64,000 bases of DNA. It comes from Arctopsyche grandis (lineage: Eukaryota > Arthropoda > Insecta > Trichoptera > Hydropsychidae). A model generated the notes under the pieces. That model was not told the origin of the DNA. It was given only the letters and a program-made list of their open reading frames with translations, and did not search any database. The stretch spans positions 15,690,501-15,754,500 of the forward strand of contig NC_135360.1 of assembly GCF_051622035.1 (NCBI RefSeq). Reading direction: 5' to 3'. Positions 5,323 to 57,478 of the stretch are shown here, one piece after another. The stretch's first letter is position 1. Every line of letters starts with the position of its first letter. A program made the position numbers and the translations under genes.

Positions 5323-8300
5323 TTAAATGCCATCAGGAGTTCCATAAAACTTGCGTTGTCTCGATGACATATTACTGCGAAAAGAAAATAAAGCCAATGA
5401 AAGTATTATTTTTGAAGTATTAATACGTTTAAAGAGAAAAGTATGATCCGACATGATAAAGAATGTTAAATACAACTATGAGATTAACCTTCCATTGACA
5501 GGCGTGTAGAAAAATCCTCGCCGACCCGTTTGACTCGCACTTGACTTTGAGCTCGACGTCAAACTAGGTGTAGATAACAACATGTCTTTGGAAGCCAATG
5601 TCGATGAATGCGGCATTGATTGAGGCATTGTATTAATACGAGGCCGCAGAGAGGGTGTTCGGTGCAAAGGCGGTGTCGCTACCACACTAGATCCATCGGA
5701 ATAAGACACGGCGGCAAAACGCGCCCAATAATCAGACGATATCTCCAACAGTCTTTCCATCACCTATAATAAAATTAAATTTCTTGGTAATTGGGTAATT
5801 ACTTGGTACGTATGTACATATATTTGGTAATATATTTACTGCAAATTGTTGCGCAGTTTGTTGATACATGTAACTAGGATCGGGGTCATTGTCAGAGTAT
5901 CCGATAATCGTCGGTCCGAATACTTTGGATAAGTTTTCAACAGGCATTTTGCATTCCACGCATTCTGCTACTCTATTTGAGATAAAATATATTTGAGTTG
6001 AAATATTATATGTAAATATAAAACAAATGATAAATATTCATTAACATTCAGCTACCTTTGTAAATGAAGCATCATAAAGGCAAGTGTGTCCCTATTCGGT
6101 TGTGGCAATTCACTAATGGCTTGATATAGGGCAGCTTCACTATCATTTCTGTCGGACAGTTCCGTAGCCGACACAAAGTCTATAATAAGAAATAAAAATT
6201 CGAATTTTTGCTTTACAACAAATTAATTCTATTCGTACTAGTGCTAGTCCACGACTTACCAGACCATAGCGAATATGTAATCAACGGTTCCCGCAACGAT
6301 CTTAAGAAATCTTTAATACAGCCACATATTACATTAATGTCAATATTGTTCAGTGGTGGGGCTCCTTTGTGTTTCATGAAACGATCCTAAAAATAACAAA
6401 TATATTTACATACAAAAAAATAAATAAATTTCATAAATATAAAAAAAAACACATACTTTGAGTGCTTTCACTTCTTTTTCGGAGCCAGGAACACGATACA
6501 ATCCAACTTCAACTAGTCCTCTAGCTTCGACTTCATTCACACAATGGATTATAAGTGCTGGTACCATGGGACTCACATTTGGAGTGTAATCAGCAATAGT
6601 GCCCTATAAAATGAATTCAATCAACATTTTCTTGTTTTCAAATAAAAACTACGAAGAAGAACATTGTAGAAACAAACCATTTGGTTGGCACCATTAGAGC
6701 TTGGTGTTCCATTGCAAGGTACACATGGTAGGGGTAAATTATTTTTGCAATCCATATGACAAATGGCACGACAATCTGTGCATTTGACAACGGCTCTTGC
6801 AAATCGTATCCTAAATTACAACAAAAATAGTTATAATTATTCTGCAAGCTTTTTTGCATTATACATACATATGTATATTTAAAGCAATGGTATTACCTGG
6901 TGCCACAAGTTGTGCATGGTTCAGGTCTTATAACAGTTTTATTGGTGAATGTGTGTTGTCGCAATCTAGCAGTGCCACGAGGACTACCGACTCCACCAGT
7001 TCCACCAACAGTATATCCATTATCAGATTCTTTTGCTTTATAAAAAAACAAACAGATTTAATTATAATTAAATAAAATTGGATTATTAAAATGAGTTTAA
7101 TTACAATTAAATTACTTTTTATTGGTATTGGAGGTGGGCAATTTTTGATGTTTGTTGTATAATGTCCATTTTTGTCACCTTTGGATGTTATTTTAATATT
7201 ATATTGAGTTTTTGTCGATTTGGGTGTTGTTTGAGAATTCAAATTGACAGGTAGTTCATCACTATCGTTCTCATTGTTTACAACTCCCTGTAATTATATA
7301 AACATATATGAGTTTTTGATAGTACATATAAATTGTTTTGCATAGAAACGTGTTTCACAAGCTTATATTTAATATTTCATTTGCTAGATTAGGATAGATA
7401 TTTTGTACTAAGGATAAAATAGTATATATGTACAGTAGAAAATTAAAATGAAACGTTAACATGAAATGAAAAGAAATATACCTCGATGACAGAGGAAGCA
7501 ATGATTTTCCCATTTCCAGAGCATTCACCGCATCTATCAACAGTTACTGTTGTAGTAGCAATTAATTTGTTAGTATTAACAGTGCTCACAGTATTGCTTT
7601 CCACCTTTCGAAAAAGCAAAGTAATATAGTCAAAAAATGCAAATAGTTCATAAACATGCTTTGAGGAATAATAATGAGCGTGAATTAGAAAACATGCAAT
7701 GCATTTGTTACAGTCCAAGTGTACATTTAGTTTGTTCATACATGAATCAATCTGGCCAGTTGTGTTGTACACAAAAGAACAAACAAGCGAATTTGTTCAT
7801 GCACAAACTACTCCATTATCCGTCTTCTATGCATGCTTACCCTGGGTTGCAATATAGAATTACCTTTTTCAAAATACTAAGCATTTTGAAAGCTAAAAGT
7901 CTCATGCGATATCTGATGGGAGTCTTTGACTGTTAACACTTTAGTTTGTGTAATGAACAAACTATAATAGTATGCTCTTGAAAGAACCAGGGTGAACACT
8001 TGGACTGTAGCACATATGCTACTTAAATAAAAATCAAGATAGTATTCAATTACTTTGCTGCCACCGGATGAGCATCTCTTCTTTGCCGAAGAATGGCCAT
8101 CACTTGCAGGCATTGAAGGTGGCACAGGGGCAGAGGGCCGGTGTCGTTTCCACGATTTTCTCCGATTCACGAGAGATTCATCCAAATCATCTTCAGAACG
8201 AGAAAAACTTTGGTCGGATAATAAAGTACCTAAAAATGCTCGGTAAGTTACGACAAAGATGGATTTGAATAAAATTCTGGCGAAGAAGAAAGAGTAAAAT

Positions 8301-11822: not shown

Positions 11823-12004
11823 ATGGGCGAAGACGAGGCGTGCGAGGAGGGGTCGGGGCTGGAGGTGGCGCCGTTCGGGCTGCGGCTGCGCGGCCGAAAA
11901 GGCGCCCTCAAGAAGAAGAATGTCTACAACATCAAAGACCACAAGTTTATGCCGCGCTTCTTCAAGCAGCCCACCTTCTGCTCCCACTGCAAGGACTTTA
12001 TCTG
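11823..12004 (+). CDS. Pkc: Conventional protein kinase C, first coding exon
   Basis: Encodes residues 1-60 plus two bases of W61. Residues 21-32 ([12 protein letters not shown]) are the autoinhibitory pseudosubstrate with Ala28 at the phospho-acceptor site. The first half of the C1A finger follows: H40 K F ... RFFKQPTFC53SHC56KDFIW, nearly the family consensus. The exon ends ATC TG|gtcagt, which is the exon 1 boundary of vertebrate conventional PKC genes as I recall it. Known role: diacylglycerol/Ca2+-activated Ser/Thr kinase recruited to membranes. The rest of the C1A/C1B, C2 and kinase domains are not found in the following 52 kb. It is head to head with RacGAP1. Which paralogue (Pkc53E- or inaC-like) cannot be decided from this exon. 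Confidence 0.93.
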
Positions 12005-12934
12005 GTCAGTTTCATTCATCACTCGCACTTTCACACTTTCATTCATTTCACCCCCACCCCCCTCCTCCGCCGCTCTTCTCCTACCCGTCTATATATTACC
12101 CCGCACCCGCCCCCTTCATTCAACTTTTTTCCAACTAAATTTTGGCTCGTTTTCATTTATGAAAATTCATATGAAACGGTTTATGTAGTTTGAATTTTTA
12201 TTATTTCTTCGATGCTTTTGTTTTTTTTCTACACCTATGTATGTATACAAATTAGCGTTCAACTTTTGAATTGTTCGATTGTAATAAGTAGTCGTTTGTT
12301 TTTATTCTTATTTAATTCTAATTGGAATCTAATTTTAAATGTGCATTTTGTTCCGATGAAATTTGTTTGAGATAACTTTTTTACGTACATAATATTAAAT
12401 TTTGCAAATAATATGTATGTATTTACTGTGAGGCGTCCATTAATACTGAAATTGAAAAATATCAAATTTTCGAAGAAATTCAAATTTTGACAGGCTTCGT
12501 AAAATATATATATGTATATGTATATTATACAGTTAAATTATATTTTCATATTTTTGGCATAAAATCGAATTTATCAGGAATACATTCACAGTTTTAAGGT
12601 AAAAAAAAAATGAAACATATTTTAACATTTTGTACAACGCAATTTTTTTCAGTTTTCAATTGTTTTATTAAGATTTGAATTATTAAATGATTAATTTATA
12701 GGTATCTATTTCATGAATTTTTTTTATTCATAGGCAATATAAAGACAAGCACGTTTTCCGAATATTCTTAATTTGATTTTAATTTTTAAAATCTTTTTAT
12801 TGTTTATTGATATATTTTTATAGATAATATACATACATTATGTTAATAATACAACTTAAAGTACAGATCCATTAACTGTTCTACGCTAATTTTCTTGTTA
12901 GACATTAATGTTTAAGGCATCATAGGAAAAAAGC

Positions 12935-19336: not shown

Positions 19337-21120
19337 ATACATACATATATGTATGTATGTAGGTACATATTATGGGCGATGTTCGCAACTTACATACAGT
19401 TGCAAGTATTTACATACAGGTAGAAGGATCCGTGCACTTATTACCGTTTTATTGCAGGTTTATTATATTTTATATAATGCTGTCGGTTGTTTGAAGTTGA
19501 CTATTTTCTCTCCTTATCCGCAATTTGCCCCCCCTTAACTTAAGATATATGTCTGAAGTTTGGCGTGTACAAGAAAAGTATATTGCTTCGGACGCTTTCG
19601 GCCCCGGAATACGCTTAACGCTATTTATTTCTATCCAATTTCTGTGAAATATTTGAGATTTATAGTTGTTTCCGGAGAAGTTTTAGCGCAAGGTGTTCTT
19701 CCCCTTTTATAAAAGTTTCATTCACCGATTTCCTAACAAAACCCCTCCAGGGCAATTCGGCAAAGCATTGCGCCCTTTCCGTTTTATATTCGTTTATTTA
19801 TCGGGAATAATGTTAAAAAAAAGAAAAAAAGGAATCGTAAGAATGGAAATAGTGCCGATTTAAAATTTTCCACGAGAGAGCAGGCTTTTCCTCGATTGAC
19901 GAGAGATTGTAATGCGGACGTTCTCAAGGATAATGCAAGCGCCTAATGAAAATCCTTTCAAATTTTCCTCGTCGTTAGGAATTCGACGACTATGTACATA
20001 TTTTATTTGTTTTAAATGTATGTAGGTAGTTCGAGTACAATACTTTCGCAGTGTGATGTATGATTTAGTAGGTGAGGTTTAGTACTTTCATCCCTGACGT
20101 TATCTGTGTGTAGGATGTGTCCATTTTCAGGGGATTAGTGACGCCATTCAACTGATCGATTTTTTCCCCCATTAAATGCCCAAGGGGAAGGACGTGCTTC
20201 TCATTCTGTTGATCTTAAATTTCTTTGAAACGTGTAAAATACATTGTATGTACATATCATCGGTAATGTTTGCTTTTAAAACGTATACGTTCAAATGTTC
20301 ATTTCTATTTGCAATTAAATATATGAAGTGTTTTCGTATCATAATATTTTAGCAGCCAACAGTTATTTTTTTAAGGCTAGCTTAGGTTATGTAAAGTTAG
20401 GGTTGGTAGTACGACGTGCAATATCGCATGGTGCATTATGCGTTACGAGGATGCGTTATCGAAGTTTTCAAAAAATATAAAAAAATACATCATAATTTCA
20501 ACAAGTAAGAATATTTGTTAATTATTATTTTAGGATACAACTACCAATATTAGGATACAACTTTTTTTTAGTAAGGAAGCGGGGGGGTTCATAAAAATTA
20601 AACACCGACCTGGTTCTGTTTTATTTGGCACTACACACACCACTGTTTATATAATACATACATAAAAATAATAATATACGGGTAATACTCCCGGATGCAA
20701 GTTATCTTACTTTTTTTTTGTTCATACATATATATAAAGAAACTTTACGACATTATAATGCGATTTTTTTAGAAATAATTACCATTTTTTCGTAGTAATT
20801 TTGTATATTTTTTTAACACGCCGAAAATAATAGCGACTCTATAGATGAGCCATTTTGAATGCCCTACATATTATATACATATGTACTTATCTAGGTATTT
20901 GTTTTTTAATCTACCTTATCTATTTGCGATCAAATTAAAATTTCATCGGTAGCATTCTTCATTTTTTTATAGTGAGGGCAATCAATTTCTAATTATCGCA
21001 TTTCGCCCTAATGCTTAGCCAATTAACGGATTAGTTTTTTTTTATTCCTATTAGGCATTATCGTGACTGCCGTGTGTCTATTTTAGTCTGTGACGTTGAA
21101 CCGAAATTCAGATCGGTCTT
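19337..21120. other. Intronic sequence, nothing recognised
   Basis: AT-rich unique sequence with scattered ATGTACATAC simple repeats and a G run at 20580-20587. No feature assigned. Confidence 0.35.
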
Positions 21121-52510: not shown

Positions 52511-53165
52511 TGAATTTTGAGTATTTTGGATTGAATTCGATTTATCTGAAGTTAAGATACATATTGAAGCTTTTTTTTAGAATGAACTGGTCCAGTCCTA
52601 CTATTTTGCAATGATTTTACATGCAATATATATGAATGTATGACTGTATGAATGTATGAGTGTATGTACACATACATATGAATATATATATAAATTTTTG
52701 CTTATCTGATAGATACTGGAGTTTTGATAACTTTTATGCCTTGAAACACAGAGAAAATTCTTCGAAAAGTTGATAGAATTTCAAACTTTTCACCCCTTTT
52801 TATCCGGAAAAATGTTTATATGACATTAATGTTTAATACACTGTAGGATCCTGTTTTAATATTTCAAAATGTTGTGAATCAGCTGAAACTTTAGTAGCTC
52901 ACGAGATTCACAAAAAAAACTAAATTATTTGAATAATTTACGATAGTATAACATTTACATATGTATGTAGGTGACATTTTTATTAATGTGTGCAGCGATA
53001 AATTTTGTAGTTCTAGTTCTAAAGAATTTTGCTACATTTTAAACCATTCATTTAAACATTTCAATGGCTTCATCCTCATCCTTATAACGATACCCTCTTT
53101 TACAAAAAATGTGCATGTATTTTAAGCTTTGTATTCATTTTTTTTACATGTAACAAAAAAAATAT

Positions 53166-53199
53166 CTAACATATTATTTTTGTTTATTTTCAGGTAAGA
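53166..53199 (+). promoter_or_regulatory. Candidate recursive splice site (ratchet point)
   Basis: TTTTTGTTTATTTTCAG|GTAAGAG, with the junction between 53193 and 53194. A T-rich tract precedes CAG, a branch-point-like CTAAC lies at 53166-53170 (23 bases before the junction), and a near-consensus 5' splice site follows with no exon between. In Drosophila and vertebrate long introns this juxtaposed 3'ss/5'ss is the defining signature of recursive splicing. It lies 41.2 kb downstream of PKC exon 1, in the sense orientation of PKC. It is the only site of this quality I found in the intron. Function is inferred from sequence only. Confidence 0.7.
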
Positions 53200-53265
53200 G
53201 CACAATCAACTGTAACAAAACTAAATTATTCAGCTCACGAACGTGGATCCTCTGATTACATAGAG
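53194..53265 (+). other. Candidate RS-exon / cryptic cassette exon
   Basis: 72 bases between the 3' splice site at 53193 and a second 5' splice site ATAGAG|GTAAAA at 53265/53266. Such a downstream donor is needed for exon definition at recursive sites. Spliced to PKC exon 1 (which ends in TG) it reads TGG TAA, a stop in the first full codon, so inclusion would truncate PKC after the half zinc finger. Read alone in frame 1 it is open for 24 codons, which leaves open a small exon of another transcript. Confidence 0.5.
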
Positions 53266-55448
53266 GTAAAATTGATTGGTGCGTTTCTCATTCCCCACCC
53301 TCTCTTCGCGGTCAATGTTTGTTTACCTTTACATTTCACAACATTATATTGAAATAGTTAATTTTCAATATTATCTCGATTGTCGATCGGAACAATAGTC
53401 AAATTTAACGCGTGAAATTCCACAGTTTTATTCAATGGAACGATATTAAATTTAACCTGAACGAGAGAACCCCTATATTCATCCCAATGGCTCATAGATA
53501 TAGAATATACATAGATATGCCTTTACATACAAATTTCGTTGGAGATGTTGTCGCCATTAACTGAGGGGTGCGGGGGGGTTTAACTAGCGGGGAAGTGGTG
53601 AAAAAAAAGGTCGACGCAGCGATCATCCGTGGTCAGCAACCAGTTTATGTACATATGTACATACACTGAAGTTTTATTTTATTTATAACTTTATTTTATT
53701 GGACACTCCGCGTGACAGTAAACCAAACTAATAAAGCCATATTAAGAAAAAAATATTTAGCTATACACACTATATTAAACTACAAATGTATGTTACTATA
53801 ATAAAACCATCATTAACTATTACAATATTTAAATATTAGTAACTTCCACAAGGATCAATTTTAAAGCTGACACTTTAATATTTAGTTCATTGTTTGTAGT
53901 TTTAAACTTAATGTCGATTTATGAATTTCCTTCAGTGCCAACAAGATATACGTGTGCATTTAGAGACATCTGTGGCAGAGGTTGTCGACCGCTGTTCAAT
54001 CACTGCATACAACACTACATACATCGCGCCGATATTTCATTATATGTTAAAATACTACTATAATTGAAGACATTATATATCAATTCTTACTTATGATATG
54101 TGATGCCATCCGCCTTTTTATGTTTTCTTGAGTAATTGTAACACAATTTCACTGAACACGTTGGCATTTTCGAAAAATGTCAATCGACCTTCCTACTTAG
54201 AAGCTAACTAGCTACTGAGAGAGAGTGTGCATGATCTGTATTTTTTTTTGTTTGTGCATGATCCAACAGGGTGACCGGCTTAGAGCGTCAGGGCGTATCT
54301 ATGGTATTCTATATCTATGCAATGGCTTCAATTCACAGATGTGCACTTCTCTCCCCGCCATACCCACAGATTATACACCGTGGTAGTACCCGTTGGAGCG
54401 TTACTCGGAACCCGGTGCCCATAGTCTGCTTTGTTTGATTCAATTCTAGAATTTCAATACTTAGAAGTGGTGGAAATTTCTCATTACGGGTATAGTATTC
54501 GCATTGTACGCCCTCCTACTAATCTAATCGTACAATATTCAATTAGGTCCTTCGACGAGATATAATCTTCAATAGGTACATTATTGTATTATGGATATTG
54601 CGCAGTATATACATATATATATAAATATACATATGTACATAAAAGTTGATTTTGTGTTACTGTGTGTTAGTTGTTCGACGTTTGTTTCGTAAGCTGATTA
54701 GTCTCTGCGGGACACGACGACGACGACGTTGAGGACACGTCGAACGATGCGGGAAATCTGGTCGATGTTTTCCTCTCCATTTGTTCGTTCGTTCGGTAGT
54801 CTTTTTGAACGACGTCTCATTAGGTTAATTAGCGTTATTTCGTTAGGGAGCGAAATCAGACGGGAAATACATATATTTTCCGGAGCGTAAGCTTGTACGC
54901 ACGGCTTGCTTTGAAATAAACAATCGTTTTTGTATTGTGTACATATGTATGTTTCAATGAAGCATTTGTCTGTACAATGTATGTATGTATGTCTTTCATA
55001 AATACTTATTTGGAGAGTATGTAGACTCGTTTAGAATGTTAAAACGGTCAGAAAAGGTTTTTGTTCAGATTTTCTCAGTTACAGATTATTGGATGCTGGA
55101 GAAATATTCTTTATTAGGAATCGATATCGTTGAATTTCTGTTAAATTCAATGCGTTTGTTCTCTAAGGCTATTTCATATACAAACATACATACATACATA
55201 TATGAAACGTTAACATTTTTAGACGTATTATACATACATATGTAGTAACAATAGATGAAGTTTTGTGATCATGCGAAAATTCGACCTCGTTTTCATTATG
55301 TGGATATATGTATTTTCTGTTTCGAAGTGTAGTGAATTTTTACTGTTTTTTTTTTGTTAATGAAAACGAAATTTATAACTTATCATCCTACAGTAAATCT
55401 TAAAGTTTTTGAAATATTCTAAAATTAGTTTCGCCATATAGACTTGAA
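53266..55448. other. Intronic sequence after the recursive site
   Basis: Unique, repeat-poor, with a G run at 53568-53577 and a CGACGACGACGACGTTG patch at 54716-54732. It ends with a piece of the TTTATCTAT-family repeat at 55240-55290. No PKC exon was found. Confidence 0.4.
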
Positions 55449-56716: not shown

Positions 56717-57478
56717 TCTTCTTAATATATAATTTGGAAAGAGACTTTGTATGTATCCTTGGTTCGTTCGTTCGTAGATCCGTGACGTCATCGAACAAAT
56801 GATTTGATTTATTTTTTTTTCGATTCATAGGCGCCGATTCGATTTTGGCGCTGATTCGATTAGGCGTTGATTCGCCTTAGTTCAGGGGGGTGCAGGGGGC
56901 GTAGCCCTAGACGGCAAATTCTCAGGGGGGCGCAGGTGGCGTAGCCCAAGTCGGCAAAGGTTCAGGGGGGTGCAGGGGACGTAGCCCTAGACGGCAAATG
57001 CTCAGGAGGGCGCGGGTGGCGTAGCCCTAGACGGCCAAGGTTTAGGGTGGCGGAGGCCTAGATGGCAAATGCTCAGGGGGGTGCAGGTGGCGTAGCCCTA
57101 GACGGAAAATGCTCAGGGGGGCGCAGGTGGCGTAGCCCTAAACGGAAAATGCTCAGGGGGGGCGCAGAGGGGCGAATCCCTAAACGGCAATTGCTCAGGG
57201 GGGCGCAGAGGGGCGAAGCCCTAAACGGAAATTGCTCAGGAGGGCGCAGGTGGCGTAGCCCTAGACGGAAAATGCCAGGGGGGCGCAGGTGGCGTAGCCC
57301 TAGACGGAAAATGCCAGGGGGGCGCAGGTGGCGTAGCCCTAGACGGTAAAGGTTCAGGAGGGATTTTATCAATTTTTATTTTTTTTGATTTTATTTAAAA
57401 AAAAAATTCTGATTGTTTTTTTAACATTTTTTAAATTTTTTTTTATACATCCCGGGCAAAGCCGGGTAATAAAGCTAG
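56717..57478 (+). mobile_element. Helitron-like element C of a triple array
   Basis: Starts TCTTCTTAATATATAATTTG + GAAAGAGACTTTG, the same start as the short family at 36091 and 50581, and ends CCCGGGCAAAGCCGGGTAAT + AAAGCTAG (CTAG 57475-57478). Most of its length is the GC-rich minisatellite described separately. Confidence 0.7.
56882..57360. repeat. GC-rich minisatellite, about 40-60-bp units
   Basis: About ten copies of a unit containing CAGGGGGGCGCAGGTGGCGT and AGCCCTAGACGGAAAATGCT. The first copies are about 60 bases and the last two about 44. Strong GC contrast with the 30-35% GC around it. Open frames on both strands (RRWRSPRR, LRHLRPPG) are products of the repeat. Confidence 0.9.

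Follow-up and report, generated by a model that had tools for sequence, protein, structure and literature searches.

The DNA analysed here, a stretch of 64 kb referred to as the window, corresponds to C6:15690501-15754500 of a 475.7-Mb assembly (G000) that includes at least 13 contigs of over 11 Mb; set against the fly karyotype, this size and contig number point to an insect that is apparently not a Drosophila. A glutaredoxin gene is found at 1439-1789 on the plus strand (Pfam, 2.7e-9) and a RacGAP1-like gene at 5732-6800 on the minus strand (PDB, E 2e-5), the latter including, at 6788-6723, a weakly C1-like piece (E 0.8). Both lie upstream of a protein kinase C (PKC) gene, the coding part of whose exon 1 is located at 11823-12004 on the plus strand, starting with the ATG at 11823 and ending in phase 2 (..CKDFI TG). 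The protein encoded by this exon matched PKC beta in the PDB set with an E-value of 9e-19 (phmmer), scored 26.6 bits against Pfam C1_1, barely over the cut-off of 26.5, and agreed at 86% over 36 residues with a stretch of fly PKC. Judging from these matches, the host gene looks like a classical (conventional) PKC of the insect type. A search of prokaryote contigs for insect DNA, made with the exon-1 protein, gave 181 pattern matches, none of them a relative. No RNA families at Rfam gathering scores and no tRNAs (ARAGORN) were found in the window, and there was no Pfam match at E 0.1 for seven of its 47 ORFs, six of these seven being inside the PKC intron described below.

The native donor of exon 1, GTCAGT at 12005-12010 (+), is sub-optimal, having a C at +3, and scored 7.4 in its context CTG/GTCAGT (here and below a slash marks a splice junction). 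Peptide motifs, a degenerate DNA pattern and tblastn with a PKC query detected no further PKC exons within the window. The downstream DNA was examined to coordinate 183500, coordinates beyond the window being a continuation of its numbering, and a stretch of fly PKC located exon 2, of 32 nt and with a strong acceptor, at 155015-155046 and exon 3 at 168856-168938. Exons 1, 2 and 3 join in one reading frame. Since exon 2 starts at 155015, intron 1 occupies 12005-155014 on the plus strand (C6:15702505-15845514), with 12005-64000 falling within the window, and is 143,010 nt long. The preliminary description had given a minimum of 52 kb, which is corrected here to this full length. The intron also carries a GC-rich minisatellite at 56882-57362, made of 12 copies of a 40-nt unit. 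Further along the same gene there are two distinct tandem C1B exons, at 176394-176505 (L020:2894-3005) and 183427-183538 (L037:427-538). Both are 112 nt, run from phase 0 to phase 1 and are bordered by AG and GT (..HNFKVHTYSSPAFCDHCGS.. and ..HKWETWTYLTPTFCDHCGS..), and they resemble a mutually exclusive pair encoding the second diacylglycerol-binding domain.

At 53166-53199 on the plus strand, intron 1 contains a site, RP1, that reads CTAAC ATATTATTTTTGTTTATTTT CAG/GTAAGA, with a T-rich tract between the CTAAC and the CAG and with the acceptor fused to the donor (0 nt between them). The branch-point-like CTAAC is at 53166-53170 (+), its second A being 24 nt from the final G of the AG. The acceptor half scored by matrix, consisting of the T-rich tract and CAG, covers 53176-53193 (+), where the AG closes, and GTAAGAG opens at 53194, with the donor half GTAAGA at 53194-53199 (+). 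The fused CAG and GTAAGAG, the T-rich tract and the CTAAC motif are exactly as they had been reported in the preliminary description, and its placement of the site in sense orientation some 41 kb into the intron also holds, RP1 being on the plus strand at the end of a first segment of 41,189 nt. Composite scores were calculated with hand-typed acceptor and donor matrices, and by this measure RP1 (about 16.6-16.7) was the top AG/GT of the 64-kb window on both strands, the runner-up scoring 13.3. Its acceptor half came 7th among the 1992 AGs that the intron has inside the window, and its donor half only about 45th-52nd in the same region. The closest AG 5' of the RP1 acceptor closes at 53126, that is, 67 nt before it.

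A second site, RP2, was found in the same intron and on the same strand, outside the window at coordinate 100311 (C6:15790811, +, L012). It surfaced in a genome search with a pattern of eight pyrimidines, N and CAGGTAAG, as a match at C6:15790800 (window coordinate 100300). This pattern had been set before the extent of the intron was known, is not fitted by RP1, and is expected to match 0.006 times per single strand of 143 kb. The composite score of RP2 was 18.5, higher than that of RP1, and the two are the top two sites of the 183.5-kb stretch on both strands, where the best site on the minus strand scored 13.4. Common to RP1 and RP2 are CTAAC, a T tract and CAG/GTAAGA, the branch A lying 24 nt ahead of the AG in RP1 and 26 nt ahead of it in RP2. 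When the 800-nt surroundings of the two sites were compared, the sole match with an E-value below 0.01 was the splice element itself (41 columns, 85%). Since the likeness is confined to the splice element, the two sites are not copies of one insertion. Together they split intron 1 into segments of 41,189, 47,118 and 54,703 nt, which are near-equal thirds, and when two points were placed at random, the longest segment was this short in 2% of trials (p 0.02).

Several other positions were considered as ratchet points and rejected. The site at 148941 scored 14.9; no branch-point-like motif lies closer to its AG than 53 nt, however, and the first donor above a score of 5 comes only 308 nt downstream. 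The candidates at 20071, 13432, 14153 and 50995 scored 8.8-11.6, which falls short of the median reached by the best sites in simulated sequence.

Both sites are followed by a donor that could close a short exon. After RP1, a candidate cryptic RS-exon of 72 nt (53194-53265, +) ends at GAG/GTAAAA, the GTAAAA of which is at 53266-53271 (+) and which scored 6.2, below the 9.6 of the CTG/GTAAGA that is formed when the RP1 donor half follows exon 1. This regenerated donor also exceeds the native CTG/GTCAGT of exon 1. Inclusion of the 72 nt after exon 1 gives ..DFIW and a TAA stop. At RP2 the candidate RS-exon is 67 nt, its donor AAG/GTAATA likewise scored 6.2, and its inclusion also leads to an immediate stop, with the protein ending in ..DFIW. 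Two alternative donors are present after RP1 on the plus strand, TTG/GTGCGT at 53279 (85 nt, score 6.5) and GGG/GTGCGG at 53568 (374 nt, score 8.1, above that of the 72-nt donor). Donors matching the score of the RS-exon donor are abundant, the 52 kb of intron inside the window containing 62 of them, and a donor at RS-exon distance is common by chance for one site, occurring in 17% of control windows. At both sites the elements, their order, orientation and spacing and the effect on the reading frame can be read directly from the DNA.

We propose that RP1 and RP2 are very probably zero-nucleotide ratchet points and, since there are two of them, that the 143-kb intron 1 is spliced out stepwise, in three pieces. 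Following its transcription, RP1 would offer its branch point, T tract and CAG as the 3' splice site of the 72-nt cryptic exon, which would be defined up to the donor at 53266. The joining of exon 1 to 53194 would then take out 41.2 kb and regenerate CTG/GTAAGA, and this donor would beat the weaker RS-exon donor and be spliced to RP2, taking out a further 47.1 kb. RP2 would repeat the process with its 67-nt cryptic exon, and the second regenerated donor would be spliced to exon 2 with the loss of the final 54.7 kb. The mature mRNA would be left with no trace of ratcheting, while a failure of re-splicing would be expected to add IW and then a stop. Since the native donor is weaker than the regenerated one, the ratchet would give PKC an improved donor at every step. 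That the spliceosome uses RP1 and RP2, and in this order, is what we infer from their sequence features. These features also fit the earlier reading of RP1 as a ratchet site, for which removal in two or more steps had been suggested; with RP2 the number becomes three.

The alternative that survives best, though we consider it unlikely, is that RP1 is a chance AG/GT composite in AT-rich intron DNA that is ignored by the spliceosome, the 143-kb intron being spliced in one step. For RP1 by itself, 0.04 sites of equal or better score were expected per 52 kb on one strand (order-3 Markov model, 150 simulations), and this expectation ranged from 0.01 to 0.11 when the matrices were perturbed in four ways. 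A fifth, strongly flattened version raised it to 0.99, so that RP1 became unexceptional, and a minus-strand site (10.9) then outscored RP1 (10.6). Taken singly, RP1 is therefore suggestive, being moderately beyond chance and no proof by itself, and what makes the case for ratchet points is that this intron has RP2 as well. Over the whole intron, one or more sites reaching the score of RP1 were present in 334 of 2800 simulated 143-kb introns (Markov orders 2 to 5, 700 each; 69-115 per order, or 10-16%), which favours chance. So do the genome-wide counts, which exceeded those of the reversed control by only 1.8 times for the pattern first used (41 matches against 23) and 2.3 times for a version that includes the branch point (16 against 7), the latter composed after RP1 and RP2 were known and counting the PKC pair among its 16 matches. 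Many AG/GTAAG composites in this genome could accordingly be chance-made. What chance does not readily provide is a better-scoring site of like construction in the same intron, on the same strand and at near-even spacing, both positions having a branch-point motif as well as a donor downstream. Among the 2800 simulated introns, 26 had two sites that equalled or bettered RP1, and 3 had two of which one reached the score of RP2.

It is also conceivable, but decidedly improbable, that the RP1 acceptor starts an exon of the ordinary or a regulated kind, running over 53194-53265 or as far as 53278, which would serve as a poison or 5'-UTR exon, for example from an internal promoter, and that the GTAAG at its start is not re-used. 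The 72-nt stretch does possess an acceptor, a donor and one open frame, and at least one such site in the genome, L033 among the 16 branch-point-pattern matches, reads as an ordinary exon beginning with GTAAG, which we take, by eye, to belong to a ribosomal protein gene. Against this, the PKC frame of the 72-nt stretch opens with a stop and has more stops inside, the 24 residues of the open frame found no match in the PDB set, and the regenerated donor outscores the downstream one. An ordinary exon would moreover leave two evenly spaced sites unexplained. That RP1 stems from a transposable element bearing an AG/GT motif can practically be dismissed: repeat-like sequence with a T tract and CAG/GTAAG or CAG/GTTAG does exist in this genome (L030, L031 and positions 84900 and 162186), but the 800 nt around RP1 and RP2 do not match each other outside the element and, save for 26 nt close to RP1, were unmatched in the other DNA examined. 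In this genome, false ratchet-point calls arise from the repeat-like sequences at 84900 (L011) and 162186 (L018) and in L030 and L031.

The mechanism of recursive splicing itself is already known from fruit flies, where it has been extensively catalogued (PMC8605326), and the PKC pair would add a candidate case to it. In Drosophila S2 cells a high-confidence recursive site is reported in 63% of introns over 40 kb, and the fly sites are described as enriched in first introns, tending toward even division of the intron and generally having motif scores above 0.85 with fly matrices (PMC6110457); the normalised score of RP1, obtained with our hand-typed matrices, was 0.92. In the account of Joseph and colleagues, cryptic RS-exons measure about 50 nt and donors compete with one another, a ratchet donor above the RS-exon donor going with skipping of the RS-exon in Drosophila (PMC8605326). 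The PKC sites resemble the Drosophila ratchet points, such as those of Ubx, kuz and Bx, in the fused acceptor and donor, the very long and often first intron, the cryptic RS-exon with a weaker donor, the stop or out-of-frame result of inclusion and the even subdivision. They differ in the size of the segments, which at 41-55 kb are roughly 3-6 times the 9-15 kb typical of the fly (PMC6110457), a departure in a usual rather than a defining feature, and in lying in a genome of 476 Mb. An intron cut in thirds on this scale would raise the question of whether it is the number of ratchet points or the size of the bite that stays fixed as genomes grow.

In vertebrates, recursive sites are associated with a cryptic exon that carries a premature stop and with donor competition (PMC5126111), and in mammals few fully suppressed sites are described in long introns, nine being noted (PMC8605326). 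The PKC sites share the stop-bearing cryptic exon and the donor competition with these vertebrate RS-exons, which act as a binary splicing switch of long genes, but two evenly spaced sites whose exons are predicted to be suppressed would be closer to the fly than to the vertebrate type. One paper on the bee brings up recursive splicing solely as a process excluded for a single exon (PMC8553928). Among the matches listed there was no report of recursive splicing in an insect other than Drosophila, which is not a claim of absence. No PKC example of recursive splicing was met in the literature searched, nor any mention of it alongside Pkc53E, though supplementary tables may list the fly PKC intron, and the papers that combine protein kinase C and recursive splicing with Drosophila and introns look unrelated judging from their titles and the start of their abstracts. 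PKC is not known to be among the vertebrate genes that are recursively spliced.

Elsewhere in this genome, early donors accompany AG/GTAAG composites more often than they do control windows. The composites comprised 8 of the 41 first-pattern matches and all 16 branch-point-pattern matches, one being common to both, which gives 23. A donor scoring at least 5.5 at 30-110 nt was present in 16 of these, compared with 94 of 552 control windows, and the difference persisted when the PKC pair was left out (14/21 versus 87/504, p 7e-7). Threshold, distance and the choice of rows were varied in 18 combinations, and p was below 6e-4 in each. Ordinary exons that begin with GTAAG would inflate this count, and two of the 16 branch-point-pattern matches look like one repeat. 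It may be that recursive splicing is general in this insect, with many of the AG/GTAAG composites being exon-defined ratchet points and the bites having grown to 40-55 kb along with its larger genome; we regard this tentatively, as a little less probable than its opposite. If true, it would separate the number of sites per intron from the size of the bite as the quantity kept by selection. Within 150 kb of each other, the 41 matches formed two same-strand pairs (0.26 expected) and no opposite-strand pair, an excess that is suggestive and too small in number to use. The same-strand pairs are located at C9:14345617 and 14384443 (minus strand, 39 kb apart) and at C13:28235000 and 28350196 (plus strand, 115 kb apart), and they are possibly multi-step introns of other genes.
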